64,000 nt of DNA from Clostridia bacterium. Lineage in GTDB: Bacteria > Bacillota > Clostridia > Oscillospirales > CAG-272. The translations under genes were made by a program, and so were the position numbers. The notes under the pieces were generated by a model, which worked only from the letters and a program-made list of their open reading frames with translations, was not told the DNA's origin and searched no databases. Position 1 is the stretch's first letter. Each line of letters opens with the position of its first letter. Shown here one piece after another: positions 40,929 to 58,358 of the stretch. The stretch spans positions 52,256-116,255 of the forward strand of contig JAFTRA010000008.1 of NCBI GenBank assembly GCA_017462485.1, read 5' to 3'.

Positions 40929-40963
40929 AAAGACAACTTAAATTGACAAATTACTCAAAATAC

Positions 40964-41239
40964 AAAAAATGGGGCAAACGGATTTGGAGCGAAAATCGTC
41001 GTTCTTCACCTCGTGAGGCGTACAAGGGTACGTCGAGATGTAAAAACGGCGATAGAATAAAAACACCATAAAAATAAAGAAAACCGGTGGTTTTCAACCT
41101 TAATTTTCTTGAAAATTGTAAAAAATACAACCGAGGTGCTGCGTAATACAACACCTCGGTGTTTTTTTTATTGGTTATGCCTAAATGAAGCAGCACCTAT
41201 CGTTTTTTATTCGCTTACGCCTAAATGCGAAAGCCCCAT
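40964..41239 (-). terminator. Structured intergenic repeat R4, double-core terminator
   Basis: Fills the gap between the convergent mnmA and the 81-residue gene. On the minus strand the outer stem ATGGGGC (41239-41233) pairs with GCCCCAT (40975-40969) and is followed by T6, a proper intrinsic terminator whose 5' arm touches the stop codon. Enclosed are two copies of the motif TTTAGGCnTAAnC: an outer one (around 41215) and an inner full core with arms AATAAAAACACC (41056) and GGTGTTTTTTTTATT (41158). The inner core is nearly the same as R1 and R5. CGATAG (41050) and CTATCG (41197) form a further nested arm. Confidence 0.78.
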
Positions 41240-41484
41240 CAAGCAAGTGAGAGTAATAAATAGAGAATACCAAACGCTGCTGCTATAATACCGAGGGTGA
41301 CGAGCATAGGTAAAAGCATCAGCTTCACGCTTGCAAAGTAAGTGCGAAGCTTTTCACGAAAGCTGTATTTAACAGGCGAGCTGTTATTTGAGTATGGCGT
41401 GCCGTAAGTGGCGGACATATCGACTATCGTCCTGCCATCGTCAACGTATATAGTTTTCTTTTTGTTTTTCTTTTTGTCACTCAT
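41239..41484 (-). CDS. Small membrane protein at the end of the opp operon
   Basis: 81 residues, not recognised. A lysine-rich start (SDKKKNKKK), a polar middle, then one strong membrane helix at the C-terminus (LMLLPMLVTLGIIAAAFGIL, about residues 55-78). It starts 22 bp after the oppF stop, so it is probably co-transcribed with the transporter. Whether it is a subunit or regulator is unknown. Position and a clean reading frame followed at once by a terminator support it as a real gene. Confidence 0.7.
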   Translation of the reverse strand: MSDKKKNKKKTIYVDDGRTIVDMSATYGTPYSNNSSPVKYSFREKLRTYFASVKLMLLPMLVTLGIIAAAFGILYLLLSLA

Positions 41485-41506
41485 TTTTGCCTCTGATATT
41501 TTTAGA

Positions 41507-42574
41507 TTATTTTACGCCGTATTTTTCCTCAAGCAGATGGCAAGCCGCAAAATGCTCGGGCTCGTACTCTCTGTAGCAAGGAGCTTCCTTTGCGCATCTC
41601 TCTGTTGCATTCGGGCAACGGGTATGGAAACGGCAGCCCTTGGGAGGATTTGCGGGCGAGGGAATATCTCCGTTAAGCACTATTCTGTTCATCTTAACGT
41701 CGGGGTTAGGATTGGGAATAGCAGAGAAGAGCGCCTTCGTGTAAGGATGAAGAGGATTCGAGAAGATATCCTTCTTGTTACCGAATTCAACCATAGAGCC
41801 GAGGTACATAACGCCGATTCTGTCGGATATGAATTTAACTACCGAAAGGTCGTGCGAAATGAAGAGGTAGGTAAGGTTGAGTTTCTTCTGCAAGTCTTTA
41901 AGAAGATTGATTATCTGCGCCTGAATTGATACGTCAAGAGCGGAAACGGGCTCGTCGCAAATAACGAGCTTGGGGTTTACCGACAGCGCTCTTGCGATAC
42001 AGATTCTCTGTCTCTGACCGCCCGAAAATTCGTGAGGATAGCGCTCGAAGTAATAATCGCGCAAGCCGCACTTTTCCATAAGGTCAAGTACGTATTCCTT
42101 AACCTGTTCCTTCGGTACGATATTGTGAACGAGAACGGGCTCCGAAAGTATATCTCCAACCGTTGATCTCGGGGGGAGAGAGGAGTAGGGATCCTGGAAG
42201 ATTATCTGCATCTTCGTGCGGTTGTGACGCATATCCTTTGTGTTATAATTCGTTACGTCCTCTCCGTCAAAGATTATCTGACCGCCGCTCGGCTCGTGAA
42301 GCTTCAAAATAGTTCTTCCGAGCGTAGTTTTTCCGCAGCCTGACTCTCCGACGATACCAATGGTTTCTCCCGCCTTAAGCTTAAATGATACGTCGTCAAC
42401 GGCAACAAGCTCCTGAAGCACCTTACCCGTAAAGGATTTCTTTATGGGGAAGCACTTACGCAAGTGTCTTACCTCAAGAAGAGCATCGGGATCGAAGGGC
42501 TCGCTTTTGTAGCTTTCGTCAACCTTTATTTCCATATCTTCGCTCTGGAGATTCAAATTTTCTTTAGTTTTCAT
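41507..42574 (-). CDS. oppF: Oligopeptide ABC transporter ATPase, OppF type
   Basis: The second ATPase of the peptide importer. It has Walker A GESGCGKTT, the signature LSGGQRQR (here FSGGQRQRICIARAL), Walker B LVICDEPVSALD and the Opp-specific C-terminal Cys motif with RFHTRCPNATERC, which in relatives binds an Fe-S cluster. About 355 residues. It overlaps the end of oppD by 11 to 14 bp; two adjacent ATGs (42577, 42574) follow AGGAG at 4 and 7 bases. Confidence 0.93.
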   Translation of the reverse strand: MKTKENLNLQSEDMEIKVDESYKSEPFDPDALLEVRHLRKCFPIKKSFTGKVLQELVAVDDVSFKLKAGETIGIVGESGCGKTTLGRTILKLHEPSGGQIIFDGEDVTNYNTKDMRHNRTKMQIIFQDPYSSLPPRSTVGDILSEPVLVHNIVPKEQVKEYVLDLMEKCGLRDYYFERYPHEFSGGQRQRICIARALSVNPKLVICDEPVSALDVSIQAQIINLLKDLQKKLNLTYLFISHDLSVVKFISDRIGVMYLGSMVEFGNKKDIFSNPLHPYTKALFSAIPNPNPDVKMNRIVLNGDIPSPANPPKGCRFHTRCPNATERCAKEAPCYREYEPEHFAACHLLEEKYGVK

Positions 42575-43943
42575 CATTATTCTCCTCTCCGTATAAGTGG
42601 CAAGCTACGTAGTGCGTAGGGCTTACCTGAACCATTCCGGGATAATCGCCCGAGCATTTTCCTATGCACTTTGAGCATCTCTCTTTAAAGAAGCAGTGCT
42701 TCGGCATATTTACGGGGTTTGGAACATTACCCGGGATATTGAAAAGCGTATCCGTATTCGAATCCATAGTAGGCTTCGATTTCTGAAGACCTATCGTATA
42801 AGGGTGAAGGGGATTATGGAATATCTCGGATACCGTACCCTGCTCAATAACTCGTCCTGCGTACATAACCACGACGTAGTCCGCCATCTCGGCAATAATA
42901 CCGAGGTCGTGGGTGATAAGCATAATAGAGCCGTTTATTCTGTCCTTGAGGTCGCGAAGCAAATCCAGAATCTGCGCCTGAATAGTAACGTCAAGAGCGG
43001 TAGTAGGCTCGTCTGCGATAATGAGTCTCGGGTCGCAGGCAAGAGCCATAGAAATCATAACTCTCTGACGCATACCGCCCGAAAGCTCGTGAGGATATGC
43101 GTTATAAACACGCTCGGGAGCGGCAATTCCGACAAGCTCAAGCATTTCGAGCGAACGGCGCTTTGCCATTTCGGGTGTTGCTCCGGGGTTGTGTATAAAC
43201 ACGACCTCGTCAAGCTGATTTCCTATTGTGAAAACGGGATTAAGAGAGGTCATAGGCTCTTGGAATATCATAGATATCTGCCTACCGCGGATACGGTGTA
43301 TCTCGTTTATGGGCATTTGTGCGATATCGAAAACCTTTTCCTCCATCTCGTACATAAGCATACCGGATTCGTTTGTTTTTTGCGATGGAACTCTGACGGG
43401 CTTTCCGTCTTTATCAAGAACAGCGTTTCCATCCTTGTCCTTCAAGGCTTCAAAAAGAACTTTTCCGTTAGGCTTACGGTTGAATACGGGAATAGGATTG
43501 CCCTCACCGTCACGCTTGAAGTCGTAGGACTTGAAGCGTATGCTTCCCGAGTATATCTGACCCTGCGGACCTTGAAGCAGGCGCATAACCGACATACTCG
43601 TAACCGACTTTCCGCAGCCTGACTCTCCAACGATACCGACGGTCGAGCCCTTCGGAATGTTAAACGAAACACCGTTAACTGCCTTTACTACACCCTGGTC
43701 GGTGAAGAAGTAGGTGTGAAGATTTTCTATTTCAAGGATATTTTTGTTATCCTTCATTTCGGTGACGAATTCACTTTCGTCGGCTTTTCTGTGCTTTTTC
43801 TTTTCAAGCGCCATCATAACCTTGGCGTTTGCTTTTGAAATATCACGAATTTCTTTAGCGGAAAGGTAGTGTCCCTTTGCGCTGTCCTTTTCGCCGCCCG
43901 TCACCTTGTTTTTAAGTTCATTTAACTTTTCTTTAAGCTTCAT
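42564..43943 (-). CDS. oppD: Oligopeptide ABC transporter ATPase, OppD type, enlarged
   Basis: The first ATPase of the importer. At 459 residues it exceeds the usual 320-350. Two additions explain this: an N-terminal charged extension of about 65 residues (including KEKLNELKNKVTGGEKDSAK) and an insertion of about 60 residues between Walker A (GESGCGKSVTS, about 105) and the Q loop (MIFQEPMTSL, about 230), rich in Lys, Asp, Gly and Asn. Signature LSGGMRQRVMISMAL, Walker B LIIADEPTTALD and the C-terminal Cys motif CFFKERCSKCIGKC are intact. It forms a heterodimer with OppF. Similar insertions occur in some clostridial relatives. Confidence 0.92.
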   Translation of the reverse strand: MKLKEKLNELKNKVTGGEKDSAKGHYLSAKEIRDISKANAKVMMALEKKKHRKADESEFVTEMKDNKNILEIENLHTYFFTDQGVVKAVNGVSFNIPKGSTVGIVGESGCGKSVTSMSVMRLLQGPQGQIYSGSIRFKSYDFKRDGEGNPIPVFNRKPNGKVLFEALKDKDGNAVLDKDGKPVRVPSQKTNESGMLMYEMEEKVFDIAQMPINEIHRIRGRQISMIFQEPMTSLNPVFTIGNQLDEVVFIHNPGATPEMAKRRSLEMLELVGIAAPERVYNAYPHELSGGMRQRVMISMALACDPRLIIADEPTTALDVTIQAQILDLLRDLKDRINGSIMLITHDLGIIAEMADYVVVMYAGRVIEQGTVSEIFHNPLHPYTIGLQKSKPTMDSNTDTLFNIPGNVPNPVNMPKHCFFKERCSKCIGKCSGDYPGMVQVSPTHYVACHLYGEENNDEN

Positions 43944-43946
43944 ATC

Positions 43947-45026
43947 TTATCTCCTCATCTTCGGGTCAAGCGCATCGCGCAGACCGTCACCAACGAAGTT
44001 GAAGCCGAGAACGGCAATGATAATGCAAATGCCGGGAGGACCCCATACATTGAAATAGTTAGAAAGGATATCGGGGTCTTTTGCGGCGTTTATCATAGTA
44101 CCCCAAGCGGCATATTGCTCGGGAGCGCCAAGACCGAGGTATGAAAGCGATGCCTCGTAAAGTATCATGCTTCCAAGGCTTAAAGTCATAGAAACTATAA
44201 GCTGGGGCATAACGTTCGGAACGAGGTGCTTGAATATCTTTCTTCCCGTGGAATAACCCATTGCCTCTGCGGCAACCATATATTCCTGCTCGCGAAGAGA
44301 GAGTATCTGACCGCGAACGAGGCGGGCGGTTCCCGACCAGGAAATGAGCGTTAAGAAGCCCATCAGCCAGTATATCTTGTACTGATAATCAAACATAGCC
44401 ATACCACCCTCGCGTAAGCCGTCGATAATAGTACCGACGATAAGAAGGATAGGGAAGCCGGGAAGACACATCAGTATATCGCATATTCTCATTATCACGT
44501 TATCTACGACACCGCCGAAGTATCCCGCGAGACCGCCAAAGATAATTCCGAGAAACGTAACGATAAATACCGCCATAAAGCTGATAGTCAGCGAAATTTT
44601 ACCGCCGTTCATCAGTCTTGCGAGAACGTCCTTACCTGTTTTATCCGTGCCGAGAGGATGCTTCCCTGATGGCTCGGAGAGCATATTATCGGTAAGCTGA
44701 GTCTCTATAACCTGATAAAATCCTTGTATATTGCCGTTTTCGTCCTCGTATTCAACCCATTTTGTCGTGTATTCGGTTTTACCGTCCTTGTCTATCTCTG
44801 TGGGTGAAACCTGATAAAAGAGAGGGCCAACCCAGCAGAACAAGAAGAGTGATACGACCATTACAAGACCGATTATACTGAGCTTTGAACGGAAGAAACG
44901 GCGGATAACCATCTGCATAGGAGACATAAGCTTGAGTGTTTGCTCATGCGTTACTTCTTCCTCGGCAGCTTCTGCGATTGCTTCGTTTTCTACTGCTTCG
45001 ATATTAAGGTTATTGTTTTCCATCAT
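43947..45026 (-). CDS. oppC: Oligopeptide ABC transporter permease, OppC type
   Basis: 359 residues with an N-terminal cytoplasmic part, one helix, then a periplasm-equivalent loop of about 75 residues (with LLSEPSGKHPLGTDKTGKD, typical of OppC), and five more helices. The EAA loop that docks to the ATPases reads EAMGYSTGRKIFKHLVPN. It has an ideal ribosome site AAGGAGGTG. The large outer loop is somewhat expanded compared with E. coli OppC. Confidence 0.94.
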   Translation of the reverse strand: MMENNNLNIEAVENEAIAEAAEEEVTHEQTLKLMSPMQMVIRRFFRSKLSIIGLVMVVSLFLFCWVGPLFYQVSPTEIDKDGKTEYTTKWVEYEDENGNIQGFYQVIETQLTDNMLSEPSGKHPLGTDKTGKDVLARLMNGGKISLTISFMAVFIVTFLGIIFGGLAGYFGGVVDNVIMRICDILMCLPGFPILLIVGTIIDGLREGGMAMFDYQYKIYWLMGFLTLISWSGTARLVRGQILSLREQEYMVAAEAMGYSTGRKIFKHLVPNVMPQLIVSMTLSLGSMILYEASLSYLGLGAPEQYAAWGTMINAAKDPDILSNYFNVWGPPGICIIIAVLGFNFVGDGLRDALDPKMRR

Positions 45027-45037
45027 ATCACACCTCC

Positions 45038-46018
45038 TTACTCAAGCTTAACTCTCGGGTCAACCACAGCGTACATAAGGTCGGCAAGAAGAACGCCGAT
45101 AACGCTGAGAAGCGCGAGGAACATATTGTATCCCATTATGAAGGGAATGTCTGCGACGAGCATCGCCTCGAATGCCTTGTTACCGATACCGGGAAGACCG
45201 AATACCTGCTCGGTGATTATCGCACCCGAGAAAAGACCGGGGAGCAATCCCGCAAGCGAGGTAACGAGGGGAATCATCGTGTTTCTGAATGCGTGCTTGT
45301 AAATAACGACCTTTTCCTTAAGACCCTTGGCTCTTGCGGTACGGATATAATCCGAGTTGAGAACCTCGAGCATATTTGTTCTGGTCATTCTCATTCGTCC
45401 GCCTATACTGAGTATAACGACCGTAAGTATAGGAATGAACAAATGCCACATCTGGTCAAGCAGAAGTGAAAATCCGGATAAATCTTTTGACGCGTCAATA
45501 AGTCCGGAGGCGGGGAACCATTCGAGCTGAATCGCAAAGATGTTTTTGAGAAGCTGACCGAAGAAGAATGAAGGTAGGGAAATACCTATCATTACGAGAA
45601 CGGTAACTATGTAGTCTCTTGCGGAATACTGATGCGTAGCAGCGGTAATTCCGAGAGGAATAGCGATGAGGAACTCAAATACGGTAGCAATAGCGGCAAC
45701 CGCAAATGAAACGCCCATATGGTCCTTGATTACGTCGATTACGGGGATACCGTACTTGAAGCTTTCACCGAAATCAAGTCTTAAAAGCTTTCCGAGCCAG
45801 GAAATATATCCCTCGAATATATTGGTGTCAAGACCGTACGTTCTCATCATAGCGTCAATCAGCTCCTGCGAGGTCTCCGCACCCGTGGTCGTTATGGAAG
45901 AAAGCTTCTGCGTAACGAAGTCAACTGGCATGCATCTGATAAGAACGTAGATGATAAGAGAAACACCAAGCAGTATAAGCACCGACAGTGCAAGTCTTTT
46001 AAGTATGTACTTTAACAT
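45038..46018 (-). CDS. oppB: Oligopeptide ABC transporter permease, OppB type
   Basis: 326 residues with six helices in the OppB/DppB pattern: the start MLKYILKRLALSVLILLGVSLI, an outer loop, and the EAA motif RTARAKGLKEKVVIYKHAFRN. It pairs with OppC to form the membrane channel. GGAGG lies 8 bases before the ATG. It follows oppA by 12 bp. Confidence 0.94.
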   Translation of the reverse strand: MLKYILKRLALSVLILLGVSLIIYVLIRCMPVDFVTQKLSSITTTGAETSQELIDAMMRTYGLDTNIFEGYISWLGKLLRLDFGESFKYGIPVIDVIKDHMGVSFAVAAIATVFEFLIAIPLGITAATHQYSARDYIVTVLVMIGISLPSFFFGQLLKNIFAIQLEWFPASGLIDASKDLSGFSLLLDQMWHLFIPILTVVILSIGGRMRMTRTNMLEVLNSDYIRTARAKGLKEKVVIYKHAFRNTMIPLVTSLAGLLPGLFSGAIITEQVFGLPGIGNKAFEAMLVADIPFIMGYNMFLALLSVIGVLLADLMYAVVDPRVKLE

Positions 46019-46030
46019 AGTGTCCTCCTA

Positions 46031-48853
46031 TCACTTTCTTTTTTTGTAGAATTTGTTGAATGCGTCAAGGTCTTCCGCATCAATCTCTTCGATGGGAATA
46101 ACGTATCCGCGCTTTTTCTTTTTCTTGTAAACGACAACGCTTGTCACAGCAGCGCAAACGGCTACTGCGCCAAATGCGATTCCAACGGCGAGTCCCGTAG
46201 AGGATGAGCCGCTTGCGGCAGCGCCCTCGTTAAGCTTTATCTCCCATATTCTGTCAAGAGGAGAGGAGTAGGGATTTATCTCATCGGGGAATGAGGTCGG
46301 GTCAACGACGTTTGCGTTGTAAGCGTAAAGCTGCTTTCTCTGATATACGGGAAGCTCAATCGCAAGGTCAAGAACGTATCCCATAGCCTCCTCGTAAAGA
46401 GCCGTACGGTCTGCCTGAACGTCGGTTTCACGCGCGTCGTCAATAATTACGCTCATCTTATTGAGTATATCCATTTCCATCCAGTAGTCGCTCTCGTTGG
46501 CAAGGATATGATTGTATCCCCAAGCCTTAACGCTCGACGCGTTGGAGTTCTTATGATATACCTGGTACATATCGGGGTCAACCGTAGTACCCCATGCAGC
46601 CGCCCATACCGCAAGCGAGCCTGTGGAAAGCTTTGTAAGAGCCTGCGTATCAGCGATAACCTCAACGTTCCAGCCGCACTCGTTAAGTAGCTTTGCGGCG
46701 GTCTGGAATACCTGATAGGTCGGGTGGTCGGTAAGATCCGAGCCCGCAATTGTAAAGGTGATGTCAAGGTCGGATTCGGTGTAGCTCATCGTGTGGCTGT
46801 ACGCCTGAGTCATAAGCGACTTGATATTCTCGATAGCCTTAGCCTCGTCGAATCTGATGTAGGGATAAGAGTGACCGTTAGTCTGCTTGTTGTTGCCGTT
46901 TGCATCCTTGGGATACGCCCAGCTTACAGTGGACATAGGCCAGAAAATCTGCTCTGCCGTACCTGCATCGTAGTACTGGAGCGCAAGGCTGGTGTCCATA
47001 GCCGCCATAATGGCGCGGCGAAGATAAATGTTGGGAATTTCTCCCGCGTTAATACCGATATAACCGTATCCGAGCTGATCTACCGCAATCTTCTCGTAGC
47101 CCTTTGACTTGATAGAGTCGAGAATAGCGGCGTTTTCCTTTGTAAGCTGCGGCGTTACGTAATGCACCGTACCCGATTGAAGCATAGTAAGCGCGTCATT
47201 TGCGGGTACTATCTGGTAACGAACCTTTTCGATATTAACCTTGTAATCTACTTCGGAATCCTCGGGAAGACTTGCCTCAAGGCTTTCCTCAAAGTAGGGA
47301 TTAGCCTTGAAATAAACAACGTTACTGCTGAAGAATTCCGTACCCGTAACGGTATCTGCGTTCTTGTTATTCGTCGCCATATATGCGCCTGCCCCCATAG
47401 GAACGGTTACGTTTCTTTGCGACTGAATAGTGTCGGTCATAAAGTCGAAGCTACCGTAATCAACGCCGAATTTGTTTTCTTTTATATCAACGGTATATCC
47501 CTCGGCGTAGTAGTGCTGCGGAGCAACCGCGAACGAGAAGTTCCATACTGCCTTAGGGTCTATTCCGTTTATCTTGATTTGAAGAACGTCGTATTCATCG
47601 GGATTTTTAGGAGTTCCGTTTTCGTTGTGCTCGTGAGCAACGGTGTACGTAGTTCCGTTTACCTCAACCGTTTCAACGTTCGTTGTATGACCGAGAGAAA
47701 CGATACCCGAAATGTTCGGATATGCAAGCTCACCGTCAACTGCGTTTTCCTTCAGAATAACCTCTTTAGCCTTTGATTCGTAAAGAGTCAGAAGCTCGGT
47801 TGCCGTAGCCCATGCCGAGAGAATTATGTGAAGCTCCGAGTTGATTTTCGAGTCATAAACGTACTTTATGGCATCTTCCTTCGTCTTTATAGAGTCAGGA
47901 TAATATCTTTGAATTTCGGTTATAACCGTTTTATCTGCGTTTGGCTTTCCGTCCTTGTCGCCGAACTTAACCAAAACGTATCCCTCCATATGCATGAAGG
48001 AGGTGATTTCGTCAAATCCGTTAGACTTGTACGGCTCGTCGGTGTAAGCGTCCTTTGCGCTGTCGTAGTCACGCTCCAGCTCTTTTCTGAAAAGCTCAAG
48101 CGTCTTTTCATAGTCCTTCAAGAGCTGCTCGGAGGTTACCGACGCCGTGTTGTTGGATACCGCCTGCTTATAACCCTCCGAAAGCTTCCATGCGGCGATA
48201 GCGTCGCGCATAGCCTGCTCGGTGGTATCGTAGTTGCCCGAGCTGGTTTCGGCAGTCTGCTTGAATACGTTTATAAGCTCTTTTATACGGTTTGATGCGC
48301 GGTCGCGTGCGGCAGAGGTAAGCCACTCGTCACCGCTTGCGCCGCCAGAAAGATTCTGCTGAGTCCTGTACTGCGACAGACCTAAAATGTCTGTCGAGTA
48401 CATAGTGGACGAGCCTGTATAAACAGGGTCAAGATAAACGTACATATTAAACAGGACGTCCTCGATAGTGAGAGCCTCACCGTCAGAGTATTTAAGCCCG
48501 TTTTTTATTACGAAGGTGTATGTTGTAACACCTGTTTTGTTGGGGTTTTCACTTTGCTCCGTGCTGTCGTAGCTTGATGCGTAATCGAGCGTAACCACGG
48601 CTTCGTTAGGGCCGAATGCCACTACCGTGTTGCCGTTTTCGTCCATTCCGGAGGTCAGCATACCTATTTGCGTCATGGAAACTATCGTTCCGTCAGATGC
48701 GCTCGTTGAATAGAACGGGTTGAACAGACCGTCAAGATTATCGGTCATTATTACGAACGCCTGATTTCCATTACCGCCACAACCGGAAAGAACCGAGGTA
48801 ATACTGAACATCATTACAACGCACAGCAGCAATGAAATTATTTTATTTTTCAT
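46031..48853 (-). CDS. oppA: Oligopeptide-binding lipoprotein, enlarged and with a C-terminal anchor
   Basis: The substrate-binding protein (SBP family 5). The lipobox VLSGC gives lipidation at Cys25. The SBP_bac_5 pattern is clear in YTFVIKNGLKYSDGEALTIEDV early on and PNIYLRRAIMAAMDTSLAL later. At 940 residues it is well over the usual 520-600, with an extra region of about 250 residues in the first half. Unusually, it also ends with a transmembrane helix (STGLAVGIAFGAVAVCAAVT) and a basic tail (KKKKKRG), so it would be anchored at both ends. The stop of the giant protease gene lies 32 bp upstream with no terminator between. Confidence 0.9.
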   Translation of the reverse strand: MKNKIISLLLCVVMMFSITSVLSGCGGNGNQAFVIMTDNLDGLFNPFYSTSASDGTIVSMTQIGMLTSGMDENGNTVVAFGPNEAVVTLDYASSYDSTEQSENPNKTGVTTYTFVIKNGLKYSDGEALTIEDVLFNMYVYLDPVYTGSSTMYSTDILGLSQYRTQQNLSGGASGDEWLTSAARDRASNRIKELINVFKQTAETSSGNYDTTEQAMRDAIAAWKLSEGYKQAVSNNTASVTSEQLLKDYEKTLELFRKELERDYDSAKDAYTDEPYKSNGFDEITSFMHMEGYVLVKFGDKDGKPNADKTVITEIQRYYPDSIKTKEDAIKYVYDSKINSELHIILSAWATATELLTLYESKAKEVILKENAVDGELAYPNISGIVSLGHTTNVETVEVNGTTYTVAHEHNENGTPKNPDEYDVLQIKINGIDPKAVWNFSFAVAPQHYYAEGYTVDIKENKFGVDYGSFDFMTDTIQSQRNVTVPMGAGAYMATNNKNADTVTGTEFFSSNVVYFKANPYFEESLEASLPEDSEVDYKVNIEKVRYQIVPANDALTMLQSGTVHYVTPQLTKENAAILDSIKSKGYEKIAVDQLGYGYIGINAGEIPNIYLRRAIMAAMDTSLALQYYDAGTAEQIFWPMSTVSWAYPKDANGNNKQTNGHSYPYIRFDEAKAIENIKSLMTQAYSHTMSYTESDLDITFTIAGSDLTDHPTYQVFQTAAKLLNECGWNVEVIADTQALTKLSTGSLAVWAAAWGTTVDPDMYQVYHKNSNASSVKAWGYNHILANESDYWMEMDILNKMSVIIDDARETDVQADRTALYEEAMGYVLDLAIELPVYQRKQLYAYNANVVDPTSFPDEINPYSSPLDRIWEIKLNEGAAASGSSSTGLAVGIAFGAVAVCAAVTSVVVYKKKKKRGYVIPIEEIDAEDLDAFNKFYKKRK

Positions 48854-48885
48854 TTTCTGTCTTCTTTCTTTGAAATACGATTTGA

Positions 48886-51800
48886 TTAGCTACCAGAAAC
48901 GATGGATACACTTCCGTCAGCTTCGATTTTGATAATAAAGGCTGTGTTATCCACGTTTTTCTTCACAGCGGTAATTTCGCCCACGGTAATGCCTGTGGTA
49001 TCTCCGTTACCGATGACGGTTTTTATGGTAAAGCTGTCGCTTCCCACAAGATTTGCGCAGTTGTCGCCAAATACCAGACTTCCGCTGACCTTTACGTTTT
49101 TGAAGCTTGCGCCGTCTGCGGCAGAGCCGGCTAAAAGACCGAAGGTCGAATTCTGCGCAACTGCCATAAGGTCAATGGTATGTGTGATTTTCTTGAAGGT
49201 AACGTTTTCGATATAAGCGTTTTCTCCAAGCGAGGAGAACAGACCGCTCGAAAGACGGCTTCTTGACGTGCTATCGAATGAAACGCCTGAAATAGTGTGG
49301 TTTCTTCCGAATATTTTACCGTTGAATTCGCCGTTTACGAAGGTAGTGGGCCATTCTGCGTTTGTGAAATCAAGGTCGGTGTAAAGCTCATAGTAGCCGT
49401 TGAGATCGGCATTCTTAATGAAGTCGTTAACCGAGTAGATTTTGTAGGTCTTTCCTTCCTTCCATTCGGTGTGAAGCTTTATAGTGGGGGTAAGAGAGGT
49501 TGCTGTTTCCTCGTCCCATTTTCCGGTAATGACCTTATTCTTTTCGGTCTGAGTTTCTATGATACCGGAATCGGCATCCCAGTCAACCGATACGAGCGTG
49601 TAGCCGTCTCTTGCGGGGAAGTTGTCCATACCGAGAGTTACGTCGCCGTCATGCCATTCGGGAATTGTGAGGTTAAGCGCGGATACAGTAGAAAGAAGGT
49701 AGCTGTTTCCGCTCTCGTCTGTGGTGTATATTTCGAAATTGTAGTAGGGAACCCATGCCGCATAGAGCGTAAGCACCGGCTCGTCGGCAGAGTATTCACG
49801 GTTATTGTTTACGTAGAGTCTGTTGCTTTCGAAGTCCCACTTGCCCGAATACGTATATCCCGCCTCGGGATTGTTTTCGTCAATGGGAGTTCTCTCAGTG
49901 TACCAGCCGGCAAGGAAGTAGCCGGGGTTGGTAACCTGCATAACGTTGTTTTTATCTCTTCTCGTGTCATCGGGCGCGAGCAGAGCTATACCGCCCTCGC
50001 CGACTTCTTCGGGATTGAAGAGGTCAACTATTGAGGATTTGCTACCCTTGAACGTACCGCCGTTTGAATCAAAGGCAACGCTTACTGTGTAGCCTTCCTT
50101 ATCGTAAGTGTCGTAGTAGCTCTTGTTTGCGTTGATTATAGCAAGGATTATTCCGACGACAAGAGCAACCGAAACTGCGGCAAGAGAGGCAATAAGAATT
50201 ATTTTGCGTCGGCTTATCTTACCTTCGTTTGTTACGAAGCCTTCGGTGATATCGTCGTAATCGACGGGCTTGTCAAAGATGCGCTTCTCGAAGGGCTCTT
50301 CGGGAGCTTCCTCTTCCGCCTCGTCTTCCTGCTCTTTTTCGTTGACGGTGAGCGTCTCTTCGGCTGAGGTCAAGGTCGCTTCGGCTTCGGTAGCGGTATT
50401 TGCCTCGACTTGCGCCTCGGGAGCTTCCTTTGCTCTCGTTACGACGCTGATTTCACCCTTTTTGAGCTTTCTTACGAAGATAAAGATAAATACGCCCAGT
50501 GCTATAATAGCAAGCGCAAGAACCGAAACGATAACGATAAGAACTATAAGAGCCGTCTTTATTCCGTTGCTCTCGTCTTTATCTGTAACGTTTTCGTTAT
50601 CAGCTTCACCGTTTGCAAGATATTCAAGGTCCTCTATCATCTGCTCCGCATTCTTAAGAATCGTAAGCAATGCGGTAGAGATAAGCGCGCGTTGCTCGTC
50701 GCTCACAATCTTGTCGTATGCGGCTCTTGCGGCTGCTACGATATCCTTGTGACCGAGGGTAATGCTGCTTGAATTTTCGGGAATCTTGCTTATTGCTTCA
50801 ATAGCCAGAAGCGTTATATTGTCAGCGGCAACCGCACCGTCGAGAACGGTGTCAAAATACTGGGAGAATACGAACGAATCATAGTTATGTCCGTTAGAGG
50901 GTCTTACCATAACCATCTTCTTGTCAACCAAGCCAACGTAGTCAATGAAGTTAGCTCCGTAATATACGTTACTCGGCATAGAGGTAACGTTCCACATGAA
51001 GTAGTCGATAATATTAAGACCGCCCTCGCCCTTTGCGGGAATATTAGCTCCGTTATAGAAGAGCATATAGTCGTATTCCTCTTCGAGAATGGGCGCGTAG
51101 TAGCTGGAGAAGTTAACGAGAACAAGCTTTTCGCATCCAAAGAACGCCTTGTGACCGATAGATGCTACGGTGTAGGGAAGTACCACGTTTGCAACGTCGC
51201 TTCCGGCAAATCCGAGAGAGCTTATTCTTACGGTCTTGTCAGCAACGTTAACGATACCGCCGTTTCCGCAGTACGTAATAAGCTCAAGACCCTTTGGAAC
51301 CACCTGATAGATAGAGCCGTCGATTACCTTGATGGTATCCGAAATATCGTAGGTGTAAACGGTTTCCTTGTATTCAACGCCGTTGAAGGTGTCCTTGACG
51401 ATTTCCTTTGAAAGAGGAGCAATCTTGCAGAATGCAAACGGATTGTCACCTAACGACACAAGATTTTCGCCAAGCTTTAGTGTGAATACGGTAATAGAAT
51501 CCTTCGTAAACGCTCCCTCTCCGATATGAGTAGCTGCGGTGAGGTCAGCCGAAGTAATAGCGGTATATGCGAATGCATAATTACCGATGCTCTTAACATT
51601 TTCAAGACCTATTACGTTAGCAAGGCTCTCGCAGTAGGAGAATGCTCCCTCTCCGATAGATTCGACGTTATTACCGAGCGTTACGGAGGTAAGGGTGTCA
51701 GTAGTAAGGAATGCGTAATCTCCGACACTCTTTACCGAGGTGAGAACAGCAGACACAAGCTTCGTTGAAACGAATGCGTGGTTACCGATAACCTCAACGT

Positions 51801-54800
51801 TTTCAAGACCGTTAACTGTAGTGAGGCTTGAGCACTCGTAGAATGCTCCGTAAGGTATATCGGTAAGCTCTTTACCGAGAGTGACCGTTGTGAGATAGCG
51901 GTTGTATGCAAACGCCTGCTCTCCGAGCTTCAGAAGAGACGAAAGATCAAGCGTCTCAATAGGAGCCGAATTGTAAACGTAAAGAGGTGTAACCGCGTCG
52001 CTGCTATACACTATATTCGTATCGGAAGCGCCGTCTGTCTCAAGATCCTGCGCATAGTATTTTACGAGATAGTCACCGTAGAATGCGCTGTTTCCGATAG
52101 TGAATGCGTTGTTAAGACCGTTGACAGTCTTAAGATTTGTTGCGTTATAGAATGCTTCGTCTCTTATTTTAGCGCCTGCTCCGAGAGTCACTTTTTCAAG
52201 CTCCGACGCACCGAAGAACGCTCTGTTACCGATAGTAACGTTGTCGCCTATGGTGAGACTGTGAAGGGGAGAAGTGTAAATGTACCAGTCAATCCAGTCA
52301 CCGAGCTTGCCTGGAACGTCGTCGTACATTTCGTTAGAAGCCTTATTATCCGCATGCTCCGTGTCACCGTTTGCCTCGTCCTTAAGCATATCGGTTGTCC
52401 ACTTGTTTCTGCCCTTGTTATAGCTGAACGAACCCTCACCGAGAATTACGTTGTTGCCGATTACTACGGTGTGAAGCTCGTCGCACTCCTCGAATGCGTA
52501 AGCGCCTACGGTAAGACCCGCAGGGATAGAAACGCTTTCAAGCTTTGATATGGAGAATGCGTAATCTCCGATAATCTTGAGGCTCGAAGAGAGCTTGGGA
52601 AGCGCAGAGAGAGCTGTGCTCTGGAACGAATAATTGCCAATCGAGTTAAGACCGCCACCGCTGAAGATTACCTCTGTCAAGGACGTGCAGTTTGCGAACG
52701 CATATCCGAGAACGTCGGTAACTTCGGGAAGATTTACGGATACGAGCTTTTCATTACCCGAGAACGCTCCGTTGCCAACGGAAGTAACGCCCGTTGCCGT
52801 AAGGCTCGTAAGAGTGGGAGCGGCGAGAAGAAGCTGCTTTCCGTCGCTTGAGGTAAGATATTTGCCGTTTTCCTTTGCGACGAAGGTTGTGTTGCCTGCC
52901 GCTATGCCAAAGCTTGCTACGCTCGTGTTACCGAATGCGAACTCACCGACTACCGCAACGTCACGTCCGAGAGTGACGGTTGCAAGCTTTTTGCAGTTGT
53001 AGAACGTACCGGTGGGAATAACCGCAGCGTTAACAGAAATGCTCGTAAGCTCTCCGCAGTCCATAAAGGCGAACTGACCTATCTTGAGCTTGGAAGCCGC
53101 GAGAGAAACCGTCGCAAGCTTTCCGTTTCCGGCGAATGCGTAAGCGCCGATAGACTGTGTCTTGTCGGAAAGCGTAATCTTTGTGAGCTTCTTATCCTTC
53201 GAAGCTACGGTTACGTACTTGTAAACCTCGTTTTTGACGTCGTATGCGTCGATAAACGTCATACCTGACGAGAATGCGTAGTCCGCAATAGCAATAGCGT
53301 TGTCAAGCTTAACGCTTTGAAGAGCTGTGTTAGCGAAGCAGCTCTGGTTGAAGAACTGAACGTTCTCAATTCCGACTACTTCCTTAAGCTTCGTGCAGTT
53401 ATAGAATGCGCCAACCTCGATTTTCTTAAGGCTCTTCGGGAGAGTTACCTTGGTAAGCTCGTCAAGTCCCGCAAATGCGTAAGAGCCGATAACCTCAATT
53501 CCCTCGGGAATAACGATTTCGGTAATACCCGCATCGTCGCCAAGGTACCACGGCTTCGTGCTTTCGGGGTTTTCGTCATTTATGATATCATACTGTGTCT
53601 TGGGACAGTAGTTATAGTTTGTGAATGCGAACTGACCTATTTCGGTAACCGCAAGCGTTTCGGGAATTATTACCTTTCCGCCGCGTCCGAAATAGCTTGT
53701 AAGGGTAGGACCGCTGTTCGCATAGGGGTCCTTAACCTCGATGTTTATAGTTTCAGCGTAGTAGGTGCTCTTTCCGTTCTGGAGAACCTTAGCGGTAACC
53801 GAAGCCGCGCCCTCGGCAACAGCCTCTATCCTTCCGTCAGCCGAAACCTTAACTATATTGTCGTTACTTGAAGCGAACTCTACGGTCGTTATACTCGGGA
53901 AGTAAGCCGTAAGAGCCGTATTTATCGTAACCGACTCCGCAGGATACATTTTAAGCGAGTAATTGTCGCCCGCAAACTTCATAATGTCGCCGCTCGTACC
54001 TATATCTCTCTCCTCGGAGGACATAAAGTAGAACGCCTTGTTTACATAGTAACCCGTAAGCTTGAAGCTCTTGACTACGGGCTTGTCGATATTCTTGTAT
54101 CCGTCGTCGCTTTCCTTAAGGACCTTAACTCTTACCGTTGTTGAAACGGGAGTTCCGTCAGCCCTCTTACCCTCTGCGACAAGCAGAGCCGTACCCGATT
54201 TGAGCGCGATTATTTCGTTGCCTACAATGCGAATGACCGACTCGTTATCCGATCTGTAATCAAGAAGCTCGGGCCACTCGGTGTTCGGGTAGAGAAGGGG
54301 AGCGAGAGTGTAGACCTCGTTGGGAGAAAGAATTATTTCTTCAACCTTATCGCCATTCTTGTCACCGAAGTAAAGGTCTGTATATTCATCGGGAAGTCCG
54401 ATTTCATAGATTGCCTGGTTGAGAGCGTAGTCGAAGCAGGTAACTACTATCGTGTTAGGACGGCCAACCGTCTTTGTGCCTGCCTTGATATCCTCGATAT
54501 AATCGGTAAGCTCGTAAACCACGTACGAGGTCGAATTATACTCGGATTTTACGGGAGTCATATATTTGTCGAAGCTTACAACCTCAACATCGTCAAGGAC
54601 GCCGTTACCGTCAATATCGTTGCTTGATACGGCGGTATAACCGAAGAGCGTTGACATAGTATAGTGGTTATCGTAAACCGCAACCTTTGCGTAAAGTCTC
54701 GTTTTCTTTGCGAAGCTATCGTATTCGGTATAGAATTCGCAGCCCGTAACCGCGGGAGCTTCAAAGTCTGTGTAAAGAGGGAACGAGAAGGTGTTATTTA

Positions 54801-57800
54801 AGTTCGTATCCTTACCGCCGTCACCGTAGTCGAGAAGACCGGTAAGAGTAACTGTGTATTTCGTATTATTTTTGAGATTCTGCTCTATTGCGCTGAACTC
54901 GATTTCAATATTTGCGGGGTGTATCGGGCCGCCGTCACCGTAAGCCTTACGCACGTTTTCCTCGACTTTGTTGAAAACAATCTCGCCCGTAGCGTCGTCT
55001 GTAATTGTTATATCAATAGTCTTTGCGTTTCGAAGCAAACCGCCCCAAACGTAACGGAGCGAGTTTATTGAATCCTCTTGATTTGAGAGGGAAATATGCT
55101 CCTTTTCTGCGTGTACCTGAGTCTTTGTAGGATCCTGCTCGTAGTAGTAAGTACCGAGGAAGGATACGAAGTCGCTGTAAATACCGCCTATGGGACGGGT
55201 TGCGTATGCGTCAGCAAGAGTCTTATCCTGCTGGTCGATAGCGTCGTCAAGCTCGTCCTTGTTGGTGTCAAAGTAGGTAAGGTCGAAGAGTGGAGCAACA
55301 GTCCAGTCACCGTAGAACGCAAGGTAGGGAACCGAAAGGTCAACGGTGTTCTCGCTCGTAGCGTCAAGAACCACAAAGCCCTCAACGTACATACCGTTTT
55401 CAAACGAATCGTCAAGATATTTCTTGTCCGCATCGCTGAGCGTGATAGTTACCTCAACGTCAGCAGTGCTCTTAGACGAAATCGATATGTTATTTCCTAT
55501 AAGCGCTCCACCGTTAACACCGGTAATTTCAACCTTCGCGCCGCCAAGGATATAAGCTTCCTCGGTAACGGTGGTTTCACCGTGGCTTGTCTTTGTCTCA
55601 CTTACGCCCTCGGTCATAACGTAGGCGGAAAGGTTATAGCTTACTGCCGTATCGCCAAAGTTGTCAATCGAGAATTTAAGCTTATAAACTCCGGTTTTTG
55701 CAGGATCGTCTCCAAGCTCAATCTTGGATTTATCCATTACGCTGCCGTCGTCTCTGTCGTATGTAAGTATATATGCATTAGTCAATGAACAGTTGAAGAG
55801 ATTTGCGAGACCTGCGCCCTGCTTTCTTACGGCGTAGGGCAGACCGTTTTTGTTGAGAACGATATCCGCAGTGGACATCATAAGTCTGTTGATTATAGCG
55901 GTAACTTTCTTAAGACTCACGTTACCGTTTTCATCGTTTATCATCTCCGCGGGGAAGTTTTCTATAACATACTGGCGGAGAAGAGCGGCAACACCCGAGA
56001 TGTTGGGAGTAGCCATCGAGGTACCCGAAATAGTATCGTAATCCTCACCGGGAACGGAGGAGTAGATAGAGCCGCCGTGAGCGGTTATCTCGGGCTTGAT
56101 TTCAAGGTCGGGACCGGGACCCCAGGAGGAGAAGTCGGACATAAAAGGACCTGCCGCCTGGCTGTAAGCAATCTTGATTTTTCCGCTTCCCGCAGCAGCA
56201 AGAAGCTCACCGTCGTCCTGAGAAATTGAGCATACGGGAATCTTAACGTCACCGACGTTCATCTTTATGTCACCGGAAACGTTGTTGTATATAATAACCG
56301 CAGCAGCGCCCTGCTTTTCGGCTACCATTGCCTTTTCTTCAAATGTCGTCGAGCCTCTCGAAACGAGAGCTATCTTACCCTTGACGTCAACGCCGGTATA
56401 GTCGGCAGTGCGTCCCGCACCGGAAATCTTTACGTATTCAAGCTCAAGCTCGGTCTTATTTGTACCGAGAAGCTCCTCGACAAATTTCTTTTCCTCGGAA
56501 ACTCTGTCGGTAGACTCAATGAAATAAACAATGCTTCCTTTATATGTGAGGTACGAGGTGTGAGTACCGCTTATCGAAGCAACGCAAAGCGAGCCGTTAT
56601 ACGTAGCGGGAGAACCGATAGTAGCACTATCGGGGTTGGATGTGAGAGGGAGGTTACCGTTCTTGTCCGAGCCGTAAGCAGAGTTAAAGCTGTTGGACGC
56701 GGCAACGATAAGGCTCATACCCATCTCGTCTATCTTCTCATATACTCTCGATTCAAGCTCCTTTTCGGAGGGAGTACTGAATCCGCAGGAGGTACCGATA
56801 GACATATTGATAACGTCAACGCCGAGGTTAACGCAGTCCTCAAGAGCAGCTATAATCCAAGAAGCTCTTGCCTGGTCGTCCGTATCCGAGAATATCTTCA
56901 TTATCGCAAGCTGCGCGTTGGGAGCAACGCCCGTGATCTCGTCGTTCTTTCCTGCGATAATACCCGCAACGTGAGTACCGTGGTCCTGTCTTATGGGGAA
57001 CACCTCTGAGTCACCGTCAGCGTAGTCAAAGCCGAACGGAACCTTCTCGTTGATGTAAAGGTCAGAGGCGGTAACGCCTGCCTGGAGTCTTTCGGCAGCC
57101 ATAACGGTTTCCTTATTAACTATTGCCGAAAGCTCCTCGAACGTAAGACCTAACGACGAGGGATTAAAGTTTGCGGTCGAGAATGCCGAGTGATAATAGT
57201 CAAGACCTGTATCAAGCACGGCAACTACGATGCCCGATCCGTCATAACCGAAGCCCTGGCTGTCGAAAATGCCCGATTCGTAAACCTTAACGGTATTCGT
57301 AACGACCTCGGAATCGGCTCTTTCATAAGAATCACCGATGTGAATTGCGTTGGTCTTTCCGAGCGTATCGCATACCTTCTCGTATTCGGAAGCGAGGACG
57401 GTGATTTCAAATCCGCGGAGAAGAGTAGAGTACTCTACGCCCTTCGTGTATTCTACGCCTGCCTCGTCGAGTAATTTGAGATTTTTCTCAATATCGCTTT
57501 CAATTTCGCTGATTGCGCTGTCAGCCTCTACTGAGTTGGCGTAGTTTTGAAAATCAGCGTCGGTTTTCGACTTATAATAGTAGTCAAGAACCGTATAACC
57601 CGGCATTTCGATGATAAGCGATAGCTCGTCGCTCATGCTCACCGAGTCGGGAAGCTTGTAGATTACGGAATCGTTGAAGAACTTCGACTTGTCGAGATAC
57701 AGTTTTCCGTCACTGTCAAGCTCTATGTACGAAGAATTTCCGTAATAGGTGGAGGTATCGGCGGAAAGCACAGTTGCAAATATCGTAGTAAGCGTCGATA

Positions 57801-57939
57801 TGAGCAAAATAGCGGAAACTACCAATACCAAGAGTTTTCTTTTTCTGTTCATCCTGTTTTTTTGCCTTTCTTGTTTTTTGCGCCGCAGCGGTAGTGATAA
57901 GCCTCGAACGTCAGATATTATACCTTCGAAATTCATCAT
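48886..57939 (-). CDS. Giant cell-surface subtilase with PA, Ig-like, LRR and C-terminal repeat domains
   Basis: Up to 3,017 residues. A signal anchor (about 33-58) precedes an S8 protease: Asp243 in AVLDTGLD, His320 in DHGTHVAG, Asn416, Ser641 in GTSMATP, with a PA insert at about 505-595, as in lactocepin and C5a peptidase. Fn3-like and two BIG_2-like domains follow (about 1180-1400), then some 25 BspA-type LRR_5 repeats (about 1420-2320; IGNYAFAYTAITSADL-type). A helical stretch, a membrane helix (about 2463-2490), an acidic linker of some 85 residues, a second helix (about 2576-2603), an InlB-like repeat (AFDSNGGTF...GYFLAGWYT) and a GLUG-like end complete it. An alternative start is the ATG at 57852. 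Likely role: digestion or capture of extracellular protein. Confidence 0.87.
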   Translation of the reverse strand: MMNFEGIISDVRGLSLPLRRKKQERQKNRMNRKRKLLVLVVSAILLISTLTTIFATVLSADTSTYYGNSSYIELDSDGKLYLDKSKFFNDSVIYKLPDSVSMSDELSLIIEMPGYTVLDYYYKSKTDADFQNYANSVEADSAISEIESDIEKNLKLLDEAGVEYTKGVEYSTLLRGFEITVLASEYEKVCDTLGKTNAIHIGDSYERADSEVVTNTVKVYESGIFDSQGFGYDGSGIVVAVLDTGLDYYHSAFSTANFNPSSLGLTFEELSAIVNKETVMAAERLQAGVTASDLYINEKVPFGFDYADGDSEVFPIRQDHGTHVAGIIAGKNDEITGVAPNAQLAIMKIFSDTDDQARASWIIAALEDCVNLGVDVINMSIGTSCGFSTPSEKELESRVYEKIDEMGMSLIVAASNSFNSAYGSDKNGNLPLTSNPDSATIGSPATYNGSLCVASISGTHTSYLTYKGSIVYFIESTDRVSEEKKFVEELLGTNKTELELEYVKISGAGRTADYTGVDVKGKIALVSRGSTTFEEKAMVAEKQGAAAVIIYNNVSGDIKMNVGDVKIPVCSISQDDGELLAAAGSGKIKIAYSQAAGPFMSDFSSWGPGPDLEIKPEITAHGGSIYSSVPGEDYDTISGTSMATPNISGVAALLRQYVIENFPAEMINDENGNVSLKKVTAIINRLMMSTADIVLNKNGLPYAVRKQGAGLANLFNCSLTNAYILTYDRDDGSVMDKSKIELGDDPAKTGVYKLKFSIDNFGDTAVSYNLSAYVMTEGVSETKTSHGETTVTEEAYILGGAKVEITGVNGGALIGNNISISSKSTADVEVTITLSDADKKYLDDSFENGMYVEGFVVLDATSENTVDLSVPYLAFYGDWTVAPLFDLTYFDTNKDELDDAIDQQDKTLADAYATRPIGGIYSDFVSFLGTYYYEQDPTKTQVHAEKEHISLSNQEDSINSLRYVWGGLLRNAKTIDITITDDATGEIVFNKVEENVRKAYGDGGPIHPANIEIEFSAIEQNLKNNTKYTVTLTGLLDYGDGGKDTNLNNTFSFPLYTDFEAPAVTGCEFYTEYDSFAKKTRLYAKVAVYDNHYTMSTLFGYTAVSSNDIDGNGVLDDVEVVSFDKYMTPVKSEYNSTSYVVYELTDYIEDIKAGTKTVGRPNTIVVTCFDYALNQAIYEIGLPDEYTDLYFGDKNGDKVEEIILSPNEVYTLAPLLYPNTEWPELLDYRSDNESVIRIVGNEIIALKSGTALLVAEGKRADGTPVSTTVRVKVLKESDDGYKNIDKPVVKSFKLTGYYVNKAFYFMSSEERDIGTSGDIMKFAGDNYSLKMYPAESVTINTALTAYFPSITTVEFASSNDNIVKVSADGRIEAVAEGAASVTAKVLQNGKSTYYAETINIEVKDPYANSGPTLTSYFGRGGKVIIPETLAVTEIGQFAFTNYNYCPKTQYDIINDENPESTKPWYLGDDAGITEIVIPEGIEVIGSYAFAGLDELTKVTLPKSLKKIEVGAFYNCTKLKEVVGIENVQFFNQSCFANTALQSVKLDNAIAIADYAFSSGMTFIDAYDVKNEVYKYVTVASKDKKLTKITLSDKTQSIGAYAFAGNGKLATVSLAASKLKIGQFAFMDCGELTSISVNAAVIPTGTFYNCKKLATVTLGRDVAVVGEFAFGNTSVASFGIAAGNTTFVAKENGKYLTSSDGKQLLLAAPTLTSLTATGVTSVGNGAFSGNEKLVSVNLPEVTDVLGYAFANCTSLTEVIFSGGGLNSIGNYSFQSTALSALPKLSSSLKIIGDYAFSISKLESVSIPAGLTVGAYAFEECDELHTVVIGNNVILGEGSFSYNKGRNKWTTDMLKDEANGDTEHADNKASNEMYDDVPGKLGDWIDWYIYTSPLHSLTIGDNVTIGNRAFFGASELEKVTLGAGAKIRDEAFYNATNLKTVNGLNNAFTIGNSAFYGDYLVKYYAQDLETDGASDTNIVYSSDAVTPLYVYNSAPIETLDLSSLLKLGEQAFAYNRYLTTVTLGKELTDIPYGAFYECSSLTTVNGLENVEVIGNHAFVSTKLVSAVLTSVKSVGDYAFLTTDTLTSVTLGNNVESIGEGAFSYCESLANVIGLENVKSIGNYAFAYTAITSADLTAATHIGEGAFTKDSITVFTLKLGENLVSLGDNPFAFCKIAPLSKEIVKDTFNGVEYKETVYTYDISDTIKVIDGSIYQVVPKGLELITYCGNGGIVNVADKTVRISSLGFAGSDVANVVLPYTVASIGHKAFFGCEKLVLVNFSSYYAPILEEEYDYMLFYNGANIPAKGEGGLNIIDYFMWNVTSMPSNVYYGANFIDYVGLVDKKMVMVRPSNGHNYDSFVFSQYFDTVLDGAVAADNITLLAIEAISKIPENSSSITLGHKDIVAAARAAYDKIVSDEQRALISTALLTILKNAEQMIEDLEYLANGEADNENVTDKDESNGIKTALIVLIVIVSVLALAIIALGVFIFIFVRKLKKGEISVVTRAKEAPEAQVEANTATEAEATLTSAEETLTVNEKEQEDEAEEEAPEEPFEKRIFDKPVDYDDITEGFVTNEGKISRRKIILIASLAAVSVALVVGIILAIINANKSYYDTYDKEGYTVSVAFDSNGGTFKGSKSSIVDLFNPEEVGEGGIALLAPDDTRRDKNNVMQVTNPGYFLAGWYTERTPIDENNPEAGYTYSGKWDFESNRLYVNNNREYSADEPVLTLYAAWVPYYNFEIYTTDESGNSYLLSTVSALNLTIPEWHDGDVTLGMDNFPARDGYTLVSVDWDADSGIIETQTEKNKVITGKWDEETATSLTPTIKLHTEWKEGKTYKIYSVNDFIKNADLNGYYELYTDLDFTNAEWPTTFVNGEFNGKIFGRNHTISGVSFDSTSRSRLSSGLFSSLGENAYIENVTFKKITHTIDLMAVAQNSTFGLLAGSAADGASFKNVKVSGSLVFGDNCANLVGSDSFTIKTVIGNGDTTGITVGEITAVKKNVDNTAFIIKIEADGSVSIVSGS

Positions 57940-57973
57940 CTGAAATCCGCTTGCGAGAATTTACACAGAGATA

Positions 57974-58002
57974 ATTATACTACACAAAATAAAAAAAAAC
58001 AA
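57974..58002 (-). promoter_or_regulatory. Probable promoter of the protease-opp operon
   Basis: On the minus strand TTGTTT, exactly 17 bp, TATAAT, 35 bp before the first ATG (57939) of the giant protease gene. The spacer is rich in T. Confidence 0.68.
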
Positions 58003-58086
58003 GTATTTTGCGCACAAAAGAAAAATAATTATTAAAAAATTAACAAAGAATTAAAAATAAATTTCAAAAAAGAACGCATTGCGCTA

Positions 58087-58115
58087 TTGATTTTTACAAT
58101 ATTATGTGATAAACT
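58087..58115 (+). promoter_or_regulatory. Probable promoter of the lipoprotein cluster
   Basis: TTGATT, exactly 17 bp, TAAACT, leaving a leader of about 240 nt before the ATG at 58359. Confidence 0.6.
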
Positions 58116-58244
58116 ATATCTGTCAAACTATGCTTTGAATTAAGAAAATGTTAGAACTTGCAATTTTTTCAACAAAAAGCAAAAAAATATGCTAACTTTT
58201 GATGAAGCTAATTTTCGCACGCATATAATTAATTTGTAGGAAAA

Positions 58245-58323
58245 TGCGAAAAAAACACTTTATCAAAATGAAGTTTAAAGTTTTTTGCGATTTGCGTCTT
58301 TGTATCAAGGAAGTGTTTTTTGC
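58245..58323 (+). promoter_or_regulatory. Leader hairpin before the TlpA-type lipoprotein gene
   Basis: TGCGAAAAAAACACTT pairs with AAGTGTTTTTTGCA (one bulged base), enclosing about 50 nt. The right arm contains T6, so the fold looks like a terminator or attenuator in the 5' leader, ending 35 bases before the start codon. No known riboswitch was recognised. The rest of the 419-bp divergent region is AT-rich with the two promoters listed. Confidence 0.45.
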
Positions 58324-58358
58324 AAGTTTTACGTCTTAAAAAATCAAAAGGAGAACAA

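Follow-up and report, generated by a model that had tools for sequence, protein, structure and literature searches.

A giant surface subtilase inherited with an oligopeptide importer: a probable protein-foraging operon in Clostridia

For the many uncultured Clostridia, a standing question is which of them digest gut protein and whether they retain the peptides released. The locus described here lies in a window of 64,000 nucleotides (the whole stretch of DNA analysed) from the assembly of a gut-type Clostridia bacterium, 2.2 Mb in size and 98% complete. A reading made from this sequence alone had proposed that a giant subtilase gene and the oppABCDF importer form one operon dedicated to protein foraging. 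That interpretation is supported by the comparisons below, and we consider a conserved operon for foraging protein at the cell surface to be the likely explanation.

Gene layout of the unit

The unit lies on the minus strand of the window. Its features, with a candidate promoter, are as follows:

58099..58126, minus strand: candidate promoter 5' of the protease gene (by consensus alone)
48886..57939, minus strand: giant subtilase-LRR protease, 3017 aa (ORF, Pfam)
55810..57240, minus strand: Peptidase_S8 domain of the protease, residues 234-710, with PA inserted at 509-580 (Pfam)
51040..53562, minus strand: BspA-type LRR_5 region, roughly residues 1460-2300 (Pfam; limits approximate, set by eye)
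50137..50553, minus strand: pair of membrane helices predicted from hydropathy, which peaks at residues 2463 and 2580
48886..50166, minus strand: fused surface module, last ~410 residues of the protease (comparison with the separate lipoprotein gene of relatives)
46031..48853, minus strand: OppA, 940 aa (SBP_bac_5, Pfam)
45038..46018, minus strand: OppB permease, 326 aa (BPD_transp_1, E 1e-34)
43947..45026, minus strand: OppC permease, 359 aa (BPD_transp_1, E 1e-34; OppC_N)
42564..43943, minus strand: OppD ATPase, 459 aa (ABC_tran, oligo_HPY)
41507..42577, minus strand: OppF ATPase, 356 aa (ABC_tran, oligo_HPY)
41239..41484, minus strand: small membrane protein, 81 aa (ORF; without Pfam match)
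41130..41160, minus strand: intrinsic terminator closing the unit (hairpin fold against shuffles)

The ORF call places all seven genes on the minus strand, spanning 57939 to 41239. Intergenic gaps are 32, 12, 11, 3, -14 and 22 bp in order from the protease gene to the small membrane protein gene, in agreement with the earlier count and its overlap. Pfam backs the role of every gene except that of the 81-aa protein. The terminator at 41160-41130, previously described as strong, has a 13-bp stem (7 GC) and a folding energy of -25.1 kcal/mol (z -6.8) that none of 200 shuffles equalled. As had also been noted, no hairpin interrupts the protease/oppA junction: the best fold there is no better than shuffles (z -0.8; 41/200 as good), and no terminator-like site was found at it. 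Since the spacing from protease to oppA is short, a single transcript is predicted. Spacing, strand and terminator all fit a single operon, and the seven-gene unit is very likely one operon here. The proposed promoter before the protease gene is present as a consensus site (TTGACA-16-TAATAT, 58126-58099). The claim that it is the only one does not follow, as positions 40900-58500 hold 34 promoter-like sites (21.7 +/- 4.5 in shuffles) and one scoring 11/12 sits within oppB.

The protease, its fused module and the importer

Pfam agrees with the reading of the protease as a subtilase-LRR protein, detecting Peptidase_S8 (E 4e-45), PA (E 4e-18), fn3_5 (E 2e-10) and LRR_5 (E 2e-110, in 7 stretches); what that reading missed is a fused C-terminal lipoprotein module. 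Residues D243, H320, N416 and S641, which from their motifs we take to be the catalytic Asp, His and Ser and the oxyanion Asn, do not vary in any of the 28 sequences aligned, the window's among them (the alignment, A1, begins at residue 61). The S8 catalytic residues, PA insert and Fn3-like domain are those of lactocepin/C5a-type cell-envelope proteinases, but the C-terminus reads SIVSGS and lacks the LPXTG sortase anchor. Among 89 complete relatives, a single LPXTG-like motif turns up within 120 residues of the C-terminal end, and 83 carry a membrane helix near the C-terminus (before the fused module in fused forms). An N-terminal hydrophobic stretch is absent from 22 of the 89 at the hydropathy threshold used. 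By its sequence, the window protease is membrane-anchored and its catalytic residues are conserved. The acidic loop between its two predicted helices is presumably cytosolic.

The fused module consists of an InlB-type B-repeat followed by a domain that resembles part of IgA1 proteases (M26_N/GLUG-like) and that we read as a beta-helix. Its M26_N-region match scores 27.0 bits, under the cut-off of 27.7. The M26 catalytic (zinc metalloprotease) domain, which Gram-positive IgA1 proteases possess, is listed for none of the proteins scanned here by Pfam. In most relatives, the counterpart of the module is a stand-alone lipoprotein gene. The second helix of the window protease occupies the position of the lipoprotein signal peptide of these relatives, and the lipobox Cys is lost. 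What pointed to a fusion in the window was the second opp set of the genome, where a separate 357-aa lipoprotein gene lies immediately 5' of oppA and its product resembles the end of the window protease (24% identity by BLAST). Fusions are present in 9 rows, and supported tree branches force at least 7 changes between the fused and separate states. As judged from these sequences, the fusion happened repeatedly. MAG errors could split or fuse reading frames. At one locus (L053, G022:C106), the protease and lipoprotein matches share one frame with a TGA inside it, so that either the gene split recently or the sequence contains an error.

The closest solved structures to the protease are those of the streptococcal C5a peptidase (7edd, E 4e-89), chemokine protease C and cell envelope proteinases; none of these enzymes is known to us to have an LRR_5 region or a B-repeat module, or to be linked to an importer. 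Such relatives, together with the IgA1-protease-like part of the module, would suit a protease whose main targets, like theirs, are proteins of host defence (complement, chemokines, immunoglobulin), with the importer as a by-product. We regard this as unlikely, because a purely defensive protease would not need the peptide importer to which the subfamily is almost universally linked. Also weighing against it are the record titles, 50 of the best 80 of which refer to ruminant gut (36) or ‘Lapin’ (14) samples, and the use of PrtP, Opp and peptidases by L. lactis to exploit casein, as given in the available part of PMC6098607.

OppA combines a lipobox (C25) and an SBP_bac_5 fold with a mostly helical insert (~159-370) and a C-terminal membrane helix. 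Its best match is AppA (1xoc), both by sequence (1e-16) and by Foldseek (E 5e-18), with NikZ and sialic-acid binding proteins scoring near AppA in the fold search; its presumed ligands are oligopeptides. The lipobox is present in 47 of 50 complete relatives. The double anchoring of OppA that had been proposed is real in the window, yet only 9 of 75 relatives have the C-terminal anchor, so it does not belong to the general mechanism. In domain content, the importer is of the Opp/App type: an SBP_bac_5 lipoprotein, two BPD permeases and two ABC ATPases with oligo_HPY.

The small membrane protein has a Lys-rich N-terminus, the motif DDGRTI-x-DMS and a single C-terminal helix. Its gene follows oppF at all 15 same-genus loci fetched for this purpose. 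Likewise, a small membrane-protein ORF is present in 14 of 15 post-oppF intervals from type-2 or protease-less units, none being seen in L149. Matches at E 1e-5 or better occur in 18 of 23 subtilase genomes of the genus and in 0 of 46 others, kinship being ignored. A window-like form also follows oppF in L074 and L079 (G019 and G052, genomes without a detected subtilase). Given its presence in subtilase-less Opp units, the protein may assist the importer as an accessory subunit, and not the protease. This family, which travels with Opp, and that of the B-repeat lipoprotein stand out as two protein families without a full-length Pfam match here.

Opp importers of Gram-positive bacteria also read signal peptides. 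The unit, which includes a small membrane protein without an assigned role, could be one for signalling: the protease would mature or clear signal peptides for OppA to read, in the way that Opp systems read pheromones. This seems very improbable to us: a protease of 2300-3000 aa that bears LRRs is large for such a task, and the genes that recur in the maps, in which regulators and propeptides were not systematically searched, are those of the unit and redoxin genes.

Linkage of protease and importer among relatives

In total, 84,980 species genomes were scanned with the S8 alignment, yielding at least 591 pattern matches; of these, 452 passed confirmation and the 80 best were retained. Loci were picked by protease similarity, never by their neighbours, and neighbour genes were assigned by profile search. 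After removal of duplicates and short rows, 101 distinct proteases remained among the matches listed, the window's included. Contig ends cut 12 of the 101 loci; of the other 89, which are informative, 88 have the protease beside genes of the unit, among the matches listed. The earlier reading had suggested this search, and what it named as evidence against itself, protease and importer regularly far apart in relatives, is not what these matches show.

Gene order varies among the loci and the link persists. Among the matches listed, the protease gene is followed on the same strand by the lipoprotein gene at 60 loci, in a few of which only the start of the latter is visible before the contig end. 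A fused protease precedes oppA at 9, the protease comes after oppF at 12, and extra large genes stand between protease and lipoprotein or oppA at 6; one further locus is convergent and one is unlinked. In the protease-then-lipoprotein order, most gaps between the two genes are <140 bp; the oppF-then-protease order needs 2 changes on supported branches of the tree. At two of the loci with extra genes (L125, L147), OppA lies on the contig and strand of the protease, ~6 and 9 kb past it. The unlinked protease (L127, G070:C31), whose contig holds no OppA of the unit's family, is a second copy; the other copy of that genome (L138) is linked. Carriers among the matches listed are labelled as Clostridia, Bacilli-named MAGs, one Anaeroplasma MAG and Anaerocaecibacter muris (Pumilibacteraceae), of which CLA-AA-M11 (L130) is the one named strain, presumably a cultured isolate from the mouse gut.

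Distant subtilases of the same order, sampled as a test of specificity, are without the link to the importer. The control sample comprised 394 genomes of the order, 53 of them with an S8 match of E 1e-80 or better; G000 and G055 were left out of the counts. In each of the 13 control genomes with S8 above 1000 bits, OppA matches reach about 700 bits or more. Ten of the 13 have an OppA match on the same contig as the protease (in G420, just the first 84 OppA residues, where the contig ends); in the remaining three (G282, G414, G379) OppA is on other contigs. A partial S8 and OppA share one contig in G257; in G332, S8 is cut and OppA is missing. For the remaining 36 genomes, where the top S8 match scores about 270-575 bits, no single OppA match of the unit's family exceeds 270 bits, nor does any lie within 20 kb. 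SBP_bac_5 (E 1e-8 or better) was found within 20 kb of 0 of 32 distant S8 places, in 20 of those 36 genomes; where one shares the contig, the shortest distances are ~28 and 30 kb. This control is weakened by breaks between contigs, yet they would equally cut links in the subfamily.

Within the genus, Pfam detects a subtilase in 23 of 69 genomes, with a patchy occurrence (4 of 22 near-complete genomes hold any). OppA matches above 150 bits are present in 23/23 subtilase genomes and 2/46 without one, kinship ignored; in the two exceptions, G019 and G026, they are found where contigs end. OppA relatives at E 0.001 or better extend to 33 of the 69 genomes, with weaker ones (20-141 bits) in 8 more of the 46 subtilase-less genomes (G062 at 141 bits, the other seven at 119 bits or less). 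The retention of related Opp units by some subtilase-less genomes suggests that the importer can work alone. Lipoprotein matches of at least 180 bits occur in 22/23 subtilase genomes and 1/46 others (G026), again ignoring kinship. Weaker, mostly partial matches (E 0.001 or better) are found in 60 of 69 genomes, so the domains of the lipoprotein are widespread and the whole protein is not. The subtilase-less G062, 98% complete, has a 644-aa B-repeat lipoprotein-like gene directly 5' of oppABCDF (L075).

The genome of the window itself has two subtilase genes. The second (2587 aa) adjoins another oppABCDF set tail to tail and, being convergent, is not co-transcribed with it. This copy could indicate that protease and opp genes share a place and not a transcript or task, with separate promoters and a linkage due to shared ancestry or joint transfer; the promoter-like sites within the region and the patchy distribution, which fits transfer or loss, point the same way. 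We find this account highly doubtful, since the link outlasts rearrangements and spans divergent lineages, Bacilli-labelled and Anaeroplasma MAGs included, and since the short protease-lipoprotein gap and repeated fusion would go unaccounted for. Taken together, the near-universal linkage in the subfamily, the recurrent fusion and the unlinked distant subtilases argue that the protease is inherited as a unit with the receptor-like module and the importer, the role of this unit being probably protein foraging.

Proposed mechanism and known systems

In the foraging mechanism that we propose, the LRR, B-repeat and IgA1-protease-like parts would hold protein substrate at the cell surface, where the protease would cut it into oligopeptides. 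OppA, most like the nonapeptide-binding AppA, would capture these before they diffuse, and OppBCDF would import them at the cost of ATP. Fused forms would carry the protease and receptor-like module on one membrane-anchored chain. We infer co-transcription, the substrate, the receptor role and the hand-over of peptides to OppA. Polysaccharide utilisation loci, both Sus-type and Gram-positive, also unite a surface receptor, a surface enzyme and an importer. The working would be similar here, with protein instead of glycan as substrate and an ABC peptide importer, though by analogy only. A serious but tentative possibility is that Gram-positive gut bacteria have in this unit a protein counterpart of such loci. 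A single complex at the membrane, built of the protease, the receptor-like lipoprotein, the oversized OppA, the importer and the small membrane subunit, would then break down protein and take up its peptides ‘selfishly’, with lineages repeatedly welding protease to receptor. A conserved, recognisable locus and a named carrier strain make the idea testable, and the locus could serve as a marker for protein-foraging lineages in metagenomes.

Lactococcal PrtP (lactocepin) is anchored by sortase, in contrast to the membrane helix of the window's protease family, with which it shares about 28% identity over S8. On plasmids pSK11P and pLP712, prtP adjoins a PrsA-type gene and IS elements, unlike the opp neighbours in the window. 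Their incomplete gene tables list no opp gene near prtP, within 20 kb each side on pSK11P and within 20 kb upstream and ~11 kb downstream (to the record end) on pLP712. These two plasmids fit the earlier statement that lactic acid bacteria keep such protease and opp genes apart; judging from these stretches, the same chemistry is there spread over separate loci. PepO of Lactococcus lactis acts intracellularly and is not a surface subtilase, and its block with opp has, to our knowledge, no lipoprotein or LRR parts.

In the available portions of the sources, lactococci likewise pair extracellular PrtP with OppDFBCA for casein use (PMC6098607), and pepO, encoding a protein named neutral endopeptidase (PMC6098607), directly adjoins the L. 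lactis opp operon (PMC6365430, PMC6098607). In the accessible text of PMC3231929, most lactic acid bacteria have some peptidase genes in operons with transporter genes, and S. thermophilus has no peptidase gene near an uptake system. On these partial accounts, peptidase-transporter operons are already known. No description of a protease-lipoprotein-Opp unit was found in the literature searched, and within that literature what is new is the union of a surface subtilase with a complete Opp unit that has a lipoprotein of its own.

Other genes accompany the unit. On the branch with and near Anaerocaecibacter muris, extra LRR_5/Flg_new genes lie between protease and lipoprotein (L130:17053-18558, L153:16971-20102), and a giant LRR_5/Flg_new surface protein (at least 2752 aa, cut; L010:2-8257, minus strand) adjoins the second protease of the window's genome. 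OppB of several type-2 units (L011:2500-3810, L049, L064, L066, L071, L074) is 434-443 aa, ~100 longer than the window's 326. Divergent from the protease gene, a gene at 58320-61805 on the plus strand encodes a lipoprotein-like product of 1161 aa, in which Pfam detects a Redoxin/TlpA-type domain. Divergent redoxin-type genes within 2.5 kb of the protease occur at 40 of the 88 loci with this flank visible (18 large, 22 small), and may serve to reduce disulfides in substrate proteins.
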